Source of the DNA: a bacterium
GTDB taxonomy: Bacteria; Elusimicrobiota; Elusimicrobia; Elusimicrobiales; UBA9959
Assembly (NCBI GenBank): GCA_021786295.1
Contig: JAJYNO010000026.1
Coordinates: 1 to 64,000 of the forward strand
Length of the DNA stretch: 64,000 nucleotides
Direction: 5' to 3'
Positions 373 through 53,500 of this stretch are shown piece after piece. Every line of letters begins with the position of its first letter. Position 1 is the first letter of the stretch. The notes under the pieces are model-generated. The model ran no database searches. It had not been told where the DNA came from and worked only from the letters and a program-made list of their open reading frames with translations. A program made the position numbers and the translations under genes.

Positions 373-434
373 CTGCGAAGGCATACCCTTGCCAGCCCCC
401 TCTCCGTTGAATAAGGACTACTCGCGGGTTTTTG

Positions 435-446
435 TATAATTGAGGC
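435..446 (+). promoter_or_regulatory. -10 box six bases before the nfnB start (leaderless)
   Basis: A perfect TATAAT occupies 435-440 and the nfnB ATG begins at 447, with only TGAGGC between. A sigma-70 start site would fall on or next to the A of the ATG, so the mRNA should be leaderless. There is no Shine-Dalgarno sequence. The -35 region is weak. Confidence 0.55.
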
Positions 447-1862
447 ATGGAAAACAAGCCCAAGAAGCCTACTCCTTCGATAAAGCAGAACCACGGGCGC
501 CACCAGGACCCGGTGGCACGCCGCTCCAATTTCGACGAGGTCGCCCTCGGCTTCGGCCTGGAAGAGGCCGTCACCGAGGCCGCGCGGTGCCTCAACTGCA
601 AGAACAAGCCGTGCGAGCTGGCCTGCCCGGTCAACGTCAGGATCCCCGAGTTCGTGGACCTGGTCCACAAGGAAGACCTGGGCGCCGCCGCCTCCAAGAT
701 CTTCGAGACCTCGCTTTTCCCCGCCATCTGCGGCCGCGTCTGCCCGCAGGAGACCTACTGCGAGGCCGCCTGCGTCCTGAAGGACAGGTTCGGCCCGGTC
801 TCCATAGGCCGCCTGGAGCGCTTTACCGCGGACTACGCCAGGAAGAACGGCCTGATCAAGCCGCCCGCCTGCGCCCCCGACACCGGCAGGAAGGTCGCCT
901 GCGTCGGCTCCGGCCCCACGTCGCTGGCGGTGGCGGCGGAGTTGCGCAAGCTCGGCCACGCGGTCACCGTGTTCGAGGCGCTGCACGAGTTCGGCGGGGT
1001 CTTAAGCTACGGCATCCCCACCTTCCGCCTGCCGCGCGAGGTGGTACGCTTCGAAGTGGACATGCTCAGGAAGATGGGCGTGCGCCTGCTCAAGAACGTG
1101 ATGGTGGGCAAGTCCATCACGATCGACGAGCTCAAAAAGGATTTCGACGTCATCTACATCGGCTCGGGCGCCGGCCTGCCAACGCCGATGAACGCCCCCG
1201 GCGAGGACCTGGTGGGCGTCTACAGCTCCAACGAGTTCCTGACCCGCGTCAACCTGATGGAGGCCTACAAGTTCCCCGCCGTGGACACTCCCTACTACGT
1301 GGGCAAGCGCGTGGTGGTGGTGGGAGGCGGCAACACCGCCATGGACTCCGCCCGCTGCGCGATGCGCCTCAAGCCCGAGCGGGTCACGCTGCTCTACCGC
1401 CGCACCCGCGCCGAGATGCCGGCCCGCGGCGAGGAAGTGGAGAACGCGATGGAGGAAGGCATCAAGTTCGAGTTCCTCACCGCGCCCGTGGAGCTCGAGG
1501 GCGACGAGAAGGGACGCCTCAAGCGCGTGAAGTGCGTGCGCATGGAGCTGGGCGCCCCCGACGCCTCGGGACGCCGCCGCCCGGTGCCGCAGAAAGGCTC
1601 CGAGTTCTATATCGAGGCCGACAGCCTCGTCGTGGCCATAGGACAGAGCCCCAACCCGGTGATCCAGCAGACCACCGCCGGCCTCTCGGTCAACAAATGG
1701 GGCGGCATAATAACCGAGGAGGCCACCGGCAAGACCTCCCTCGACGGCATCTACGCCGGCGGCGACGTCGTGCGCGGCGGCGCCACCGTGCTGCTGGCCA
1801 TGAAGGACGGCAAAGCCGCGGCCCGCGCCATCCACGAAAAACTTTCCGCGAAGGTGAACTGA
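447..1862 (+). CDS. nfnB: NADH-dependent reduced ferredoxin:NADP+ oxidoreductase, large subunit (GltD-like)
   Basis: 471 residues, the usual size for NfnB. Two cysteine clusters at the N-terminus (C48, C51, C56, C60 and a second set near residues 95-110) match the two [4Fe-4S] centres of the GltD/NfnB family. Two Rossmann folds follow: the FAD site VACVGSGPTS near residue 150, and the NAD(P) site VVVVGGGNTAMDS near 285. The protein would bifurcate electrons between NADPH, NAD+ and ferredoxin together with NfnA. The nfnA start follows after one base. The alternative, a lone glutamate synthase small subunit, is unlikely because an NfnA-type partner is adjacent and no gltB is seen. The start is fixed by the -10 position and by the lack of a better upstream codon. 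Confidence 0.88.
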   Translation: MENKPKKPTPSIKQNHGRHQDPVARRSNFDEVALGFGLEEAVTEAARCLNCKNKPCELACPVNVRIPEFVDLVHKEDLGAAASKIFETSLFPAICGRVCPQETYCEAACVLKDRFGPVSIGRLERFTADYARKNGLIKPPACAPDTGRKVACVGSGPTSLAVAAELRKLGHAVTVFEALHEFGGVLSYGIPTFRLPREVVRFEVDMLRKMGVRLLKNVMVGKSITIDELKKDFDVIYIGSGAGLPTPMNAPGEDLVGVYSSNEFLTRVNLMEAYKFPAVDTPYYVGKRVVVVGGGNTAMDSARCAMRLKPERVTLLYRRTRAEMPARGEEVENAMEEGIKFEFLTAPVELEGDEKGRLKRVKCVRMELGAPDASGRRRPVPQKGSEFYIEADSLVVAIGQSPNPVIQQTTAGLSVNKWGGIITEEATGKTSLDGIYAGGDVVRGGATVLLAMKDGKAAARAIHEKLSAKVN

Positions 1863-20849: not shown

Positions 20850-21629
20850 CTACTCTACGGCGCTCATGCCCGTGGCCCAGTCGGCCTTCTGCCCCGTGGG
20901 CTTTATCGAGATAAGCCTGTTGCCCGAGTCGGCCAGTCCGCCGGAGCAGGAGAACAGGACGTCGTACATGTAGCCTATGCGCAGGTCTGGCGCGGCGCCG
21001 AGCACGCCATCGGCGTCGTCCAGATAAATGTAGTTTAGGGTCTTCTTAGGTCCAGTGTATACGAGGTTCAGCCGCCAGCCGGAAAGCGTTTTGCTGGCCG
21101 TTATCATCTGAAGGTCCATCCGCAGTTCCCGGCCCTGGAACGAAGCGGGGTTCCGGAAAAAGGCCTCTTCCTGCCCGCTCTCCGGCGACGCCTGGGCGCG
21201 TTCGGGCTCGATTACTATAGGCGCCCCCGCGGCCGCCGAAGAGAGCCCGGCGGAAGAATCGTCTGCAGGCGAAGACGTGTCCCGCGGGACCGCGGAGTCC
21301 CCGGAGCCGGCGGCTGGAGCCGCGGCCTTCACGGACGCGGAATCCTCGGGCGCCGGCCCGGACGAGTCCTCCTCGTCCGGAGAGGTCTCGTCCGGCCCGA
21401 GTCCGTCCTGCTCCGGAGCCGCGCCCGCAGAACCGCCGGCCCCGGCTTCCGCGGCCTGCCCCCCCGCTGACCTGTCCGTCAGGTCGGCCGGGGTATAGGA
21501 GGAGCGGTAAGCGGGGGCGTTCTGGAAGTCGGCGGGCGGGTAGAACTTCTCCTTGAGCATGAAGCCTATCATGATGCCCACGCCGAAGAGCAGCAGCGTG
21601 TTGACGAAGCGCATCCGGAAGAAATTCAT
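20850..21629 (-). CDS. Unknown membrane-anchored protein with acidic low-complexity linker
   Basis: 259 residues of no family I recognise. One N-terminal transmembrane helix (about 8-25, LLLFGVGIMIGFML) is followed by roughly 100 residues rich in Ala, Ser, Glu, Asp, Pro and Gly. A compact C-terminal domain begins about residue 155 (EEAFFRNPASFQGRELRM) and includes GWRLNLVYTGPKK and RIGYMYDVLFSCSGG. The layout suggests a periplasmic domain on a flexible tether. It is first in an operon with the lipid kinase and divergent from a FecR-domain gene. Its start follows a -10 box by seven bases with no Shine-Dalgarno. Confidence 0.6.
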   Translation of the reverse strand: MNFFRMRFVNTLLLFGVGIMIGFMLKEKFYPPADFQNAPAYRSSYTPADLTDRSAGGQAAEAGAGGSAGAAPEQDGLGPDETSPDEEDSSGPAPEDSASVKAAAPAAGSGDSAVPRDTSSPADDSSAGLSSAAAGAPIVIEPERAQASPESGQEEAFFRNPASFQGRELRMDLQMITASKTLSGWRLNLVYTGPKKTLNYIYLDDADGVLGAAPDLRIGYMYDVLFSCSGGLADSGNRLISIKPTGQKADWATGMSAVE

Positions 21630-21636
21630 ATTACGG

Positions 21637-21642
21637 ATTTTA
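21637..21642 (-). promoter_or_regulatory. -10 box seven bases before a start codon (leaderless)
   Basis: Minus strand TAAAAT (21637-21642), with an overlapping TATAAA at 21639-21644, is followed after seven bases by the ATG at 21629. No Shine-Dalgarno lies between, so the transcript probably begins at the start codon. Confidence 0.45.
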
Positions 21643-21688
21643 TAATATTTGAGTTATATTGTATATTTGGACGTCAGGGGAGGCGAAT

Positions 21689-28839: not shown

Positions 28840-29934
28840 TCAGCTCCGTCCGGCGAGGCGCAGCACGCGCAGAGCCGCCGCCAGCCTGACCCTGGTGTCG
28901 GGATCGTCCAGCCCCTGGGCGAAGACAGGCAGAGCCTCGTCCTTCGGGAAGGAGGCCGCCACCTCCAGCGCCGTAAGCCTTGTGTCGGGACTGGCGGCGG
29001 TCATGGCGTCGCGCACCACGGAGACGTCCGGCTGCGCGCCGCAGAGCATCAGGGATTTCTGCGCCGCTATGCGGACCCTTATATCTTTGCTGTCCTGGGA
29101 GATCTGGAAGAGCTTGGTCTTGACCTTGGCGTCCTGTATGCCGCCCAGCGCCGCTATGGCCTTGTAGCGGATGGTCGGGTTGTCGTCGTCCGTCAGCTTC
29201 AGCAGGACGTCCTCCGCGTCCCTTTTGGCCGGCGAGCAGGCCAGCGCGTCGAGGGCGGCCATGCGCACCCTTACCGAGTCGTCCCCGGCCGCCAGCTTGG
29301 CCAGCGGGCCGGCGCCAGCGGGATGGCAGATCCTGGAAAGCACCGTGGCCGCCTCGAAGCGCACGGCCTCGTCCTGGTCGGAGAGGGCGCTTATGAAGGT
29401 GGCAAGCTCGTCGTCGTGCCCGAGCCGGGCCAGTTCGCGGGCGGCGGTGTCGCGGATCGGGCCGTAGGCGTCGTTCTTCAGCTTGTAAAGCAGGTCCGCC
29501 CCTTTCTCCCCCCGCATCCAGGCGTAGGCCTCTATGGCCTTTTCCCGTATGCTGTTCTGCGAGATTATCCTGAGCTGGACCAGGGGGTCGTTGGTGACCG
29601 GGATCGGCCCCTGGGCCGGTACGTCGTCGATGATGGCGCGTATCGTCTTCATGCCGGCCGGGCTGCCCAGTTCCCACAGCGCGCGGGCGGCCGCGATGCG
29701 CACGTACTTATCCTTATCGTTCAGCATGTCGCGCAGCATTCCTTCCGCGGCCTTGTTGCCGGCCTCGCCAAGGACGCGCACGGCCTGCTCCCGCACGTCG
29801 GAATCGGCGCTTTTCAGGTCCGCTACCACGATCTTAAGCGCTTTGGGCCCGAGCTCCTTCTCGGACGCGGGCTGGGCGGCCAGCCCGGGACGGGCTGAAA
29901 AAGCGAGCAGCAGAGGCAGCAGTAAGGCGGCCAT
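28840..29934 (-). CDS. Exported HEAT-repeat protein
   Basis: 364 residues from the ATG at 29934. It starts with a signal peptide (MAALLLPLLLAFSARPGLAA), followed by about nine HEAT/PBS-lyase-type repeats of 30-35 residues (DSDVREQAVRVLGEAGNKAA, DKYVRIAAARALWELG, DDSVRVRMAALDALACS and so on). Such solenoids bind proteins; here it should act in the periplasm or at the outer membrane. A longer frame to 29967 adds 11 residues and would break the signal peptide, and the TATAAT sits inside that extension, so I reject it. It is first in a five-gene operon with the secreted peptidase. Confidence 0.8.
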   Translation of the reverse strand: MAALLLPLLLAFSARPGLAAQPASEKELGPKALKIVVADLKSADSDVREQAVRVLGEAGNKAAEGMLRDMLNDKDKYVRIAAARALWELGSPAGMKTIRAIIDDVPAQGPIPVTNDPLVQLRIISQNSIREKAIEAYAWMRGEKGADLLYKLKNDAYGPIRDTAARELARLGHDDELATFISALSDQDEAVRFEAATVLSRICHPAGAGPLAKLAAGDDSVRVRMAALDALACSPAKRDAEDVLLKLTDDDNPTIRYKAIAALGGIQDAKVKTKLFQISQDSKDIRVRIAAQKSLMLCGAQPDVSVVRDAMTAASPDTRLTALEVAASFPKDEALPVFAQGLDDPDTRVRLAAALRVLRLAGRS

Positions 29935-29946: not shown

Positions 29947-30015
29947 GGTTCTTGCCCTTTGCGTCATGATTGACTTTTGATTACAAAAAAATTACAGCCG
30001 GTACCGGCAAAATCG

Positions 30016-30089
30016 TGCCCCCTGCAGGACTCGAACCTGCAACCCACTGCTCCGAAGGCAGTTGCTCTATCCAGTTGAGCCAAGGGGGC
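30016..30089 (-). tRNA. tRNA-Arg (anticodon TCG)
   Basis: A complete 74-base cloverleaf on the minus strand. Acceptor GCCCCCT/AGGGGGC, D stem GCTC/GAGC, anticodon stem ACTGC/GCAGT with loop CTTCGGA (anticodon TCG, reading CGA), T stem GCAGG/CCTGC with loop TTCGAGT. The discriminator is A and CCA is not encoded. Anticodon TCG with G37 fits arginine. Confidence 0.93.
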
Positions 30090-45348: not shown

Positions 45349-45882
45349 TCATCTGACGATTATAAGTTTCCCTTTCTTGGACGACCCGTCCGAGGTGACG
45401 ACGTAAAAGTACAGGCCGCTCGCGACCTTGCTGCCGGCCGTGTTGCGCAGGTCCCAGCCCACGCTGTCCAAGTTGCCGTCCTTCTGCACCGTGCAGACCC
45501 TTTCCCCCGAGATGGTATAGATGGTGATAGTGGCGCGCAGCGTGAGGCGGGTGAACGTTACCCCGTCGCAGCCCTGGGAGGCCCTGCAGGGGTTGGGATA
45601 GGCGTGGGCCTCGGAGACGTCGGCCTGAGGCGGGCGCCAGGAGTTGACCGTGCCCCAGTTCAGGGTATATCTGCCTCCGGAGAGCGTTCCAAGACCAAGC
45701 TGGCCGGTGCTGCCCAGCAGCGTATAGAGTCCGCCTGTCTTCAGGGCGGAGTTCCCGATAGTGGACTGTTCGCTGATCAGGATGCGGTATACCCCCCCGC
45801 TCAGGATGGCGGACGCGTACTCATAAAGGGCGGCCGAGAGCAGGATTGCCGAGGCCAGGACGATGGCGCGTTTCGAACGCAT
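45349..45882 (-). CDS. Small exported protein with C-terminal sorting-type (T9SS/FlgD-like) domain
   Basis: 177 residues with a signal sequence (about 1-25). A middle part YRILISEQSTIGNSALKTGG and LGSTGQLGLGTLSGGRYTLNWG looks like short beta repeats. It is followed by AYPNPCRASQG, the usual entry to a T9SS-type A sorting domain, and then ITIYTISGERV, GWDLRNTAGSKVASGLYFYVV and the ending KGKLIIVR. The domain is like the end of the large peptidase (KIAVIR). It is first in a two-gene operon with the fibre protein. Partner or anchor for the fibre is a reasonable guess, not shown. Confidence 0.7.
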   Translation of the reverse strand: MRSKRAIVLASAILLSAALYEYASAILSGGVYRILISEQSTIGNSALKTGGLYTLLGSTGQLGLGTLSGGRYTLNWGTVNSWRPPQADVSEAHAYPNPCRASQGCDGVTFTRLTLRATITIYTISGERVCTVQKDGNLDSVGWDLRNTAGSKVASGLYFYVVTSDGSSKKGKLIIVR

Positions 45883-45918
45883 GATATATTGATATAGTAA
45901 AAACTGTTAACTGTCAAT
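45883..45918 (-). promoter_or_regulatory. Leaderless promoter of the fibre operon
   Basis: Minus strand: perfect TTGACA (45913-45918), 16-base spacer, TATATC (45891-45896), then eight bases to the ATG at 45882. No Shine-Dalgarno. Initiation would fall within one or two bases of the start codon. It faces away from the heptosyltransferase promoter. Confidence 0.6.
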
Positions 45919-45986: not shown

Positions 45987-46004
45987 TATAATTTTTTCGT
46001 ATCA
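45987..46004 (+). promoter_or_regulatory. -10 box of the LPS core gene cluster
   Basis: TATAAT at 45987-45992 lies 12 bases before the ATG at 46005. The predicted leader is only about five bases and has no Shine-Dalgarno, so the first GT9 gene is near-leaderless. Confidence 0.45.
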
Positions 46005-47516
46005 ATGGAAATAAACAAGCCGGACCCGCGGATACTCGTCATCAGGATGTCGTCGCTGGGCGACATCATACTGACAGCGCCGGTCTTCAGGAACCTCAAG
46101 GCCAAATGGCCTGGGGCCCGCCTCGAGATGCTGGTGAAGCCGCAGTTCCGCGACGCGGTATCCAGGTGCGCGTTCATAGACCGGGTGATCCCCTTCAACG
46201 GCCTGCTGGCGGCTCTGGCGGGGATCAACGCCGCCCGCTACGACGTTATCATCGACCTCCACGACACGCCCCGCAGCCGCTTCCTCTCGCTGCTGGCCGA
46301 CGCGCCGGCAAAGCTGCGTTATCGGAAGTCCTCGCTGGCCCGGCGGCTTTTCGTGGGGCTGCGCATCCCCAGCCCCGCGCTGGAGAAGCATACGCTGGAC
46401 CGCTACCTCGAGACCTTGGCCGGACTTGGCGTGCCGGTAGTCCACTCCGGCCCGGAACTCGGCGACTGGCCGCCGGCGCCGGGAGGTCCGGCGCTGGGCC
46501 CCGGGCCTCTCAAGGTCTGCCTGCTGCAGACGGCCTTCCTCGGGGACTGCGTCCTGACGCTGCCGCTGCTGAAAAAGCTCAAGGAGACGCTTCCCGGCGC
46601 CTCCGTCACGGTGGTGACCCGCCCGGAGACGGCGGAGGTGTTCGCCGCCTCCGGCCTGGCCTCCGCCATCGTCGAGGACCGCAAGAAGACCGCCTCCTCC
46701 GGCCTGGCGGAATTCCGCAGGCTTACCGCCGAGCTCCGCTCGGGCGGCTTCGACGCGGCCATCGTGCCGCACCGCTCCCTGCGCAGCGCCCTGCTGGCCT
46801 GGCGGGCCGGGATCCCGGTGCGCGTAGGGTTCTCCTCCAGCGCCGGCAGCTTCCTGCTCACCCACAAGGTGCCGTTCTCCTGGCTGCTGCACGACGTGGA
46901 CCGCAACCTGTCGCTGCTCTCCCCGCTGGCAGAGGACCTGAGGACCGCCTTTCCCGGGCTGCGCCGGTCGGCCGGGCCTCCCTATTCGCCGGCGGAGCGC
47001 GTGACCGCCGGCATCAACCCGGGCTCGGCCTGGCCCACCAAACGCTGGCCTGCGGGGAAATGGGCGCGCCTCATAAAGAAGCTGGCCGCCGCCCACGGGG
47101 GGCGGGTGCTGATAGTCGGCGGGCCGGGAGAAAAGGAATGGAACGGCGCCATAGAGCGCATGGCCGGACCGGAGAACTGCCTGAACCTGACCGGCCGCAC
47201 CACGATGCCGGAGCTGATGGAGGCCGTGCGGCCGCTCAAGGTCTTCGTCTCCAACGATTCGGGGCCGATGCATATAGCGGCCGCGCTGGGCGTTCCGGCC
47301 GTCGGGATATTCGGCCCGACCACGCGGGAGCTCGGCTTTTTCCCCTACGGGGACGGCAACCGGGTAGTGGAAACGCCGCTGGCCTGCAGGCCCTGCGCGC
47401 TGCACGGCTCCAGGAAATGTCCTCATTCCCATTTTCTCTGCATGAAGCTGCTCACAGTGCAGGAGGTCTTCGACGCCGCAGAGAAGTGCAGGAGGGGCTC
47501 CGCCGGGGCGGAGTGA
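46005..47516 (+). CDS. Composite GT9 heptosyltransferase-like protein with duplicated N-terminal half
   Basis: 503 residues, about 150 more than a normal GT9. Residues 9-160 are one N-terminal Rossmann half (ILVIRMSSLGDIILTAPVF, ... IIDLHDTPRSRFL). A full GT9 follows from about 167: LKVCLLQTAFLGDCVLTLPLLKKLK, AAIVPHRSLRSALLAW, and the C-terminal donor site INPGSAWPTKRWP and SNDSGPMHIAAALGVPAVGIFGPT. GT9 enzymes add heptose from ADP-heptose to the LPS inner core. The first half lacks its own C-terminal donor domain, so it may be regulatory or bind acceptor. First gene of the core cluster, six bases before the deacetylase. Confidence 0.83.
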   Translation: MEINKPDPRILVIRMSSLGDIILTAPVFRNLKAKWPGARLEMLVKPQFRDAVSRCAFIDRVIPFNGLLAALAGINAARYDVIIDLHDTPRSRFLSLLADAPAKLRYRKSSLARRLFVGLRIPSPALEKHTLDRYLETLAGLGVPVVHSGPELGDWPPAPGGPALGPGPLKVCLLQTAFLGDCVLTLPLLKKLKETLPGASVTVVTRPETAEVFAASGLASAIVEDRKKTASSGLAEFRRLTAELRSGGFDAAIVPHRSLRSALLAWRAGIPVRVGFSSSAGSFLLTHKVPFSWLLHDVDRNLSLLSPLAEDLRTAFPGLRRSAGPPYSPAERVTAGINPGSAWPTKRWPAGKWARLIKKLAAAHGGRVLIVGGPGEKEWNGAIERMAGPENCLNLTGRTTMPELMEAVRPLKVFVSNDSGPMHIAAALGVPAVGIFGPTTRELGFFPYGDGNRVVETPLACRPCALHGSRKCPHSHFLCMKLLTVQEVFDAAEKCRRGSAGAE

Positions 47517-52468: not shown

Positions 52469-52483
52469 TATAATATCTATATT
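52469..52483 (+). promoter_or_regulatory. -10 box nine bases before the heptose kinase start (leaderless)
   Basis: TATAAT at 52469-52474, then nine AT-rich bases, then the ATG at 52484. No Shine-Dalgarno is present. The start site would lie zero to three bases before the ATG. Confidence 0.55.
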
Positions 52484-53500
52484 ATGACAAAGGCTGCTTT
52501 CAAACGCCTTTCTGCCGTCGCGGCCTCGTTCCGCGGCCGCCGTATAGCCGTATTCGGCGACCTGATGCTGGACCGCTACGTGAAAGGCACCGTAAAAAGG
52601 ATCTCGCCGGAGGCGCCGGTCCCGGTAGTGAGGGTCACCTCCGAGTCCGCAGTCTGCGGCGGCGCCGCCAACGTGGCCGTGAACCTGGCCGCGCTGGGCG
52701 CCGAGCCGCAGCTGCTCTCCGTCACCGGGCGCGACCCGGCTGCCCAGGAACTGGCCTCTCTCCTCTCCGCGGCAGGGGTCTCCTCCTCCAGGCTGGTCGC
52801 GGACCCGGGCTTCTCGACCATAGAGAAGACCCGCGTGATAGCCGAGCACCAGCAGGTCGTGCGTTTCGACCGGGAACAGCCCTCGCTGCTGGGGCACTCC
52901 GCCAAGAAGGCCGCGCTGGACGCGCTGGACGGGGCCCTGAAGGACGGCTGCGGCGCGCTGATACTTTCCGACTACGGCAAAGGGCTGCTGGAACCGGCTA
53001 CGATAAAGGCCGCCGTCTCGCTGGCCGCCTCGCGGCGTGTCCCGGTCTTCGTCGACCCGAAAGTGGAGCATTTCCAGCTCTACCGCGGCGTGGACTGCAT
53101 AACGCCCAACACGAGCGAGGCCTTCGGCGGCATGCGCCTGACGCAGAGGGACGGGCAGGAAGCGGCCGAAGAACTGGGGAAGGCCATCATGCGGAAGCTC
53201 TCCTGCCGCACGCTGCTGGTGACGCAGGGCGAGCACGGCATGACGCTGTTCACGCGCCGCGGCGGGTCGGTGCGTCCGGAACACATCCCGACGCGCGCGA
53301 GGGAGGTCTTCGACGTCACCGGGGCCGGCGACACCGTTATCTCCACGCTGGCCCTGGCCTGGGCCGCGGGAGCCTCCCCGGAGGAGGCGGCGGCGGCGGC
53401 GAATTTCGCCGCCGGCGTGGTGGTGGCCAAACTGGGCACCGCCTCCGTGAGCGTGGAGGAACTGCTGGAGAGCGCCAGATCATGGCTACAACCTGCCTGA
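52484..53500 (+). CDS. rfaE1: D-glycero-beta-D-manno-heptose-7-phosphate kinase (PfkB family)
   Basis: 338 residues. Single kinase domain: GRRIAVFGDLMLDRYVKGTVKRISPEAPVPVV, GGAANVAVNLAALGAE and the catalytic GAGDTVISTLALAWAAG. It lacks the C-terminal nucleotidyltransferase half of E. coli HldE, so the adenylyltransferase must be separate. It makes heptose 1,7-bisphosphate, the substrate of GmhB. The ATG at 52484 is preferred over an in-frame TTG at 52466 that lies inside the -10 region. It overlaps kdsB by 19 bases. Confidence 0.9.
   Translation: MTKAAFKRLSAVAASFRGRRIAVFGDLMLDRYVKGTVKRISPEAPVPVVRVTSESAVCGGAANVAVNLAALGAEPQLLSVTGRDPAAQELASLLSAAGVSSSRLVADPGFSTIEKTRVIAEHQQVVRFDREQPSLLGHSAKKAALDALDGALKDGCGALILSDYGKGLLEPATIKAAVSLAASRRVPVFVDPKVEHFQLYRGVDCITPNTSEAFGGMRLTQRDGQEAAEELGKAIMRKLSCRTLLVTQGEHGMTLFTRRGGSVRPEHIPTRAREVFDVTGAGDTVISTLALAWAAGASPEEAAAAANFAAGVVVAKLGTASVSVEELLESARSWLQPA

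Follow-up and report, generated by a model that had tools for sequence, protein, structure and literature searches.

Translation initiation on a 5′-terminal AUG is established for leaderless mRNAs. Zheng et al. 2011 (PMC3160421) reported leaderless genes with a TA-like signal in 207 of 953 bacterial genomes, accounting for ~20% of genes in Actinobacteria and ~40% in Deinococcus-Thermus. In the latter phylum, an ORF-adjacent -10 motif (TANNNT; ~30% of ORFs) at a specific spacing has been experimentally proven to drive leaderless mRNA (PMC12340547). In E. coli, mRNAs have been described that carry an AUG at their 5′ end, with the gene proper being SD-led downstream (PMC4965119). Elusimicrobia are neither among the groups named in PMC3160421 nor mentioned in its text—although its ‘Other Bacteria’ (8/20 positive) may include an elusimicrobium—and the string ‘Elusimicrob’ has zero occurrences in the text of PMC12340547, as distinct from its all-bacteria survey figure. 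A class-level table in PMC10783764 lists Elusimicrobia with the anti-SD CCUCCUUU, which fits SD-led and leaderless modes existing side by side. Within the literature searched, which comprised papers outside subscription and without their supplements and included PMC5397173, we found no report of leaderless genes in Elusimicrobia. The mechanism itself is already known from other bacterial groups; Elusimicrobia would be the addition.

How does the present locus compare? The genome lies outside the phylum Deinococcota, its named nearest relatives being Elusimicrobia, and among nfnB relatives whose records are named, the closest come from Elusimicrobia MAGs. Very probably, nfnB in this genome, together with a minority of operon-head genes that recurs in the lineage, is expressed from sigma-70-type promoters with the -10 element ending 6–9 bases ahead of the start codon, giving a leaderless or near-leaderless mRNA. 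RNA polymerase would start at, or a few bases from, the A of the ATG, the resulting mRNA would have too short a 5′ end for a Shine-Dalgarno (SD) site, and ribosomes would begin on the 5′-terminal AUG as on known leaderless mRNAs, with many other genes remaining SD-led. Such genes resemble those of PMC3160421 in having a -10-like box (there ~10–12 bases before the start), no SD, and the status of a subset beside SD-led genes, but their share is lower (~6% of genes). A -10 motif next to the ORF at a specific spacing is likewise common to Deinococcus-Thermus (PMC12340547) and this genome, here as judged from sequence alone; the present class is smaller and its box is often a full TATAAT. As in the E. 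coli case (PMC4965119), the AUG is proposed to sit at the mRNA 5′ end, but here it is the predicted start of the gene itself.

Six start sites in the window

The window, that is, the whole stretch of DNA analysed, is the initial 64 kb of contig C27, which belongs to a 2.30-Mb assembly that is 79% complete and in which the largest RNA polymerase subunit found no match. Its relevant features are:

430..440, + strand: T-run, G and -10 box of nfnB (TTTTGTATAAT), sequence read directly
435-440, + strand: nfnB -10 box TATAAT, 6 nt from the ATG at 447-449, sequence read
447..1862, + strand: nfnB-like gene (Fer4_20 and Pyr_redox_2; above the cut-off for TIGR01316 gltA), ATG at the predicted +1
21642-21637, - strand: -10 box TAAAAT (not TATAAT), 7 nt from the ATG at 21629-21627
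20850..21629, - strand: gene without Pfam match
29946-29941, - strand: -10 box TATAAT, 6 nt from the ATG at 29934-29932, sequence read
28840..29934, - strand: HEAT-repeat protein gene
45912..45917, - strand: -35 element TTGACA, beginning 35 nt ahead of ATG 45882
45896-45891, - strand: weak -10 box TATATC (4/6 consensus matches), 8 nt from the ATG at 45882-45880
45349..45882, - strand: small protein gene, sub-threshold matches to C-terminal secretion-type domains
45987-45992, + strand: -10 box TATAAT with a T-run right behind it, 12 nt from the ATG at 46005-46007
46005..47516, + strand: family-9 glycosyltransferase gene
52469-52474, + strand: -10 box TATAAT, 9 nt from the ATG at 52484-52486
52470..52485, + strand: inverted repeat ATAATAT-N2-ATATTAT covering -10 box, spacer and start codon
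52484..53500, + strand: heptose-7-phosphate kinase gene (rfaE domain I type)

The sequence-only reading from which this analysis departed had described nfnB as preceded by a TATAAT six bases ahead of its ATG, without SD, and direct reading confirms this. The nfnB start codon was picked from coding potential alone; a DHODB-type subunit gene comes after the nfnB-like gene. That reading had also listed five further sites of the same -10/ATG geometry. All six are found where it placed them (gaps 6, 6, 7, 8, 9 and 12), but the boxes are four TATAAT, one TAAAAT (at 21629) and one weak TATATC (at 45882). The class is mixed in its geometry: gaps of 6–7 predict a leaderless mRNA, and gaps of 8–12 would leave a leader of about 2–6 nt.

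Several features lie beside these sites. The starts flanking 21630-21688 form a divergent pair, the minus start being of the leaderless type and the plus start SD-led (aggggaggcgaat), and between them lies a AAATATACAATATA element that is kept in most genus rows. A tRNA-Arg gene (anticodon tcg) occupies 30015-30089 (-) between yebC and the HEAT-repeat gene. Upstream of the latter (~29950-29994, -), genus relatives carry [G/T]TAA-like units every ~11 bp that are degenerate in the window; we take them to resemble PhoB/PhoP-type direct repeats. These 11-bp repeats before 29934 are visible by eye in relatives, and a pattern search of the window returned no match.

Box-to-start distance across the genome

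In a 0.87-Mb sample of the genome (64.5% GC), 737 starts were predicted by a home-made caller that scores hexamer coding potential, contains neither a promoter nor an SD term, and exactly reproduces 88 of 121 starts annotated in E. coli. An exact TATAAT precedes these 737 starts at gap 6 in nine cases, at gap 7 in two and at gap 8 in six, compared to 0–4 at each other gap in the range 0 to 50; 18 other A3T3 permutations average 0.0–0.5 per gap. Eight of the 11 TATAAT-N6-ATG sites in the sample are predicted gene starts and one more is in frame. Genome-wide, there are 145 occurrences of TATAAT-N2..16-ATG vs 38 of the reversed pattern, and among the 100 places listed, 19 have gap 6, 14 gap 7 and 11 gap 8, with 1–10 at each of the others.

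When one mismatch was allowed and the box was sought upstream of in-frame starts close to the predicted start, a box at gap 6–9 was present in 64 of 349 operon heads, as compared to 7, 21, 18, 18 and 26 at gaps 2–5, 10–13, 14–17, 18–21 and 26–29, respectively, and to an average of 9.0 for ten permuted boxes. Genes inside operons had such a box in 7 of 385 cases (0–6 at other distances). The peak at 6–9 bases for which the sequence-only reading had proposed a genome-wide search is thus present, at operon heads only and at the level of sequence. The excess of 46 genes over the mean control bin corresponds to ~13% of operon heads and 6% of the 737 genes; roughly this proportion is probably leaderless or nearly so. 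In E. coli, the same procedure applied to 150 kb returned a box at gap 6–9 in just 1 of 81 operon heads, and none of 124 annotated starts had a box at gap 4–13.

Might these boxes simply be chance A+T-rich hexamers, with the real promoters further upstream and the mRNAs leadered but devoid of an SD? A+T content is indeed higher ahead of operon heads than in the genome, and TATAAT also occurs 10–60 bases before starts. However, the sharp 6–9 peak relative to permuted hexamers and other distances, the retention of box and spacing while upstream DNA diverges, and the confinement of the gap-6 excess to one class (both described below) make this account hardly credible. For the promoter-adjacent starts that we favour, TATAAT six bases ahead of an ATG would be good start-codon evidence in these genomes and an aid to annotation.

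SD-like 4-mers precede 3 of the 64 candidates vs 142 of 285 other operon heads, a scarcity that arises partly by construction because the box takes the place of the SD. The good SD sites ascribed earlier to pepT, yebC, yajC and fba are all there (acggaggaagc, taaggagttcacc, acggaggaaag and cggaggtatt, respectively), whereas the accompanying statement that genes inside operons have good SDs is half true, with an SD-like 4-mer in 53% of 385. Start-codon choice does not distinguish the candidates (ATG in 57/64 vs 643/737 of all starts). Beyond the window, G000:C27:82119(-) and 82144(+) have divergent leaderless-type boxes, with 24 nt separating the start codons and the start at 82119(-) being two codons off the predicted one.

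Conservation in the genus

Orthologues from the genus retain five of the six window sites. Ahead of nfnB, TTTTG(T)TATAAT at gap 6–8 is kept in 9 of 13 relatives, and in profiles computed over the relatives that carry a box, upstream identity to the window amounts to 0.83 in block -12..-7 and 0.78 in block -18..-13, compared to 0.15–0.44 in other blocks. In four of the 13 relatives, nfnB is leadered. The 29934 box stands at gap 6–7 in 19 of 20 relatives, mostly as TAGAAT, the 21629 box at gap 6–7 in 15 of 17 (17 of the 18 given relatives being alignable), the 46005 box at gap 6–12 in 23 of 23, and the 52484 box is found in 23 of 23 (gap 9 in 22, gap 7 in one); together, these four sites have box and spacing kept in 80 of 83 orthologues. 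At 46005, the T-run directly after TATAAT is kept although the distance from box to ATG varies from 6 to 12. The remaining site, 45882, is the exception, with just one of 22 relatives passing the strict box rule. By eye, TTGAC is present there in 17 of 22 genus rows; in the window, TTGACA begins 35 nt ahead of ATG 45882, so that the +1 would fall on the A of the ATG.

A box-adjacent ATG could in principle be nothing but a 5′-terminal AUG, with the true start being an SD-led codon downstream. Precedents are the E. coli mRNAs introduced above (PMC4965119), and start calls by a home-made caller are imperfect. Against this stands the nfnB N-terminus, which is MENKPKKP-like and conserved in the genus from the box-adjacent codon on, including those relatives in which an SD precedes it. 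Moreover, the start chosen by coding potential is exactly the candidate start in 54 of 64 cases. We thus regard a downstream start as very unlikely.

Do the six sites constitute a single class? Sites with gap 6–7 may be truly leaderless while the others have very short leaders or are regulated, for instance by an operator, a division that would be compatible with the promoter-adjacent starts proposed here. It finds some backing in the kept inverted repeat over box and ATG at 52484, in the T-run after the 46005 box with its gaps of 6–12, and in the combination of TTGACA with a weak -10 at 45882. On the other hand, gap 6–7 by itself already exceeds the controls, and an SD does not fit into a leader of 2–6 nt, so that such genes would functionally belong to the same class. 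Overall, we consider this division conceivable, if rather doubtful. The inverted repeat at 52470-52485, recognizable by eye in 22 of the 24 rows (own included), is a possible operator; as a regulon signal it was discarded, with one copy in the own sample and one in that of relative G018.

Reach within the phylum and history of the nfnB start

Operon heads of three relatives show the box at gap 6–9 as well: 30/148 in G009 (controls 1–11), 46/206 in G033 (controls 7–27) and 29/162 in G018 (controls 8–14). For the phylum, we compared TATAAT-N6-ATG with TATAAT-N13-ATG in 198 genomes, the patterns being counted without gene context and the counts of related genomes being mutually dependent. Across the whole class Elusimicrobia (95 genomes), gap 6 outnumbers gap 13 by 4101 to 1852. 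This holds in the own order (3535 vs 1661; gap 6 leads in 67 of 70 genomes) and in the other orders of the class (566 vs 191; 22 of 25). The 103 genomes from other classes of the phylum show no gap-6 excess (4287 vs 5091; ahead in 25 of 103). Contrary to the trend, the excess is small (676 vs 490) in 11 genomes that belong to the own family but to other genera. Among 19 genomes reached via other loci, both Elusimicrobia have a gap-6 excess (79:37 and 49:36). Of the 17 non-Elusimicrobia outgroups, 12 have none and five a small surplus at low counts (7:4, 3:0, 30:25, 7:3, 6:3).

The proposal that a recurrent leaderless class at operon heads is a property of this lineage thus gains support from the peak, the conservation and the class-wide reach, which all point in this direction. 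A class of mostly uncultured bacteria would join the groups having leaderless genes, and a boundary of the leaderless class is suggested inside one phylum. On balance, we lean toward viewing leaderless initiation as a standing second expression mode, gained by the class Elusimicrobia once it had separated from the phylum's other classes, with single genes having since switched both ways, as nfnB suggests.

The usual preference at transcription start sites is for a pyrimidine before a purine +1. The own genome was placed in family f1, and the same order holds a second family, f2. In six f2 genomes, among the places listed, T precedes the gap-6 ATG in 93 of 111 cases vs 19 of 77 for the gap-13 ATG, as if the A of the ATG were +1 (Fisher p 2.5e-16, an underestimate given that genes are shared among related genomes). 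The corresponding counts of T are 20 of 29 in G033, 12 of 18 in G018 and 5 of 16 in G009, and the 22 sites of the own genome are only weakly skewed, with no strong base preference (5 T, 9 C, 7 G, 1 A; 14/22 pyrimidine). Own leaderless sites have T-runs shortly ahead of the box; a -35 consensus was not seen in this set at n=18. At least four TTGACA matches occur at a rate of 0.17 vs 0.11 in scrambled sequence in the own set (n=18), amounting to no -35 enrichment, whereas the sites of G018 (n=8) lean the other way (0.38 vs 0.12) and 45882 keeps TTGACA; the leaderless sites may or may not share with the Deinococcus-Thermus promoters their independence from a -35 element.

The f2 nfnB rows listed have no adjacent box but SD-like sites, and likewise most of the six f2 rows for the heptose-7-phosphate kinase. 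A tree of 28 nfnB proteins, rooted on f2 (two of the six given f2 rows, L019 and L020, were left out, being on the opposite strand), requires at least three changes of the leaderless label (bootstrap 3–4), although 9 of its 25 inner branches are open, a number of forks have weak support, and only one change is forced by the strongly supported branches taken alone. As the outer branches (f2, L048, L070/L082, L044/L046 and L052) are leadered, the simplest reading is one gain plus two reversions, in L039 and in L045/L050. The nfnB gene thus looks to have been SD-led in the ancestor and to have become leaderless later, with about two reversions. By pairing an SD-led orthologue in one species with a leaderless one in a close relative, such sets open this switch to study. 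If true, this would make the genus a ready-made series in which to follow changes in the mode of translation initiation. In L045 and L050, the aligned ATG has a TATAAT ~30 nt upstream and SD-like sites between the two; one nfnB reversion may have retained a similar -10 box and placed an SD-bearing leader of ~30 bases behind it.
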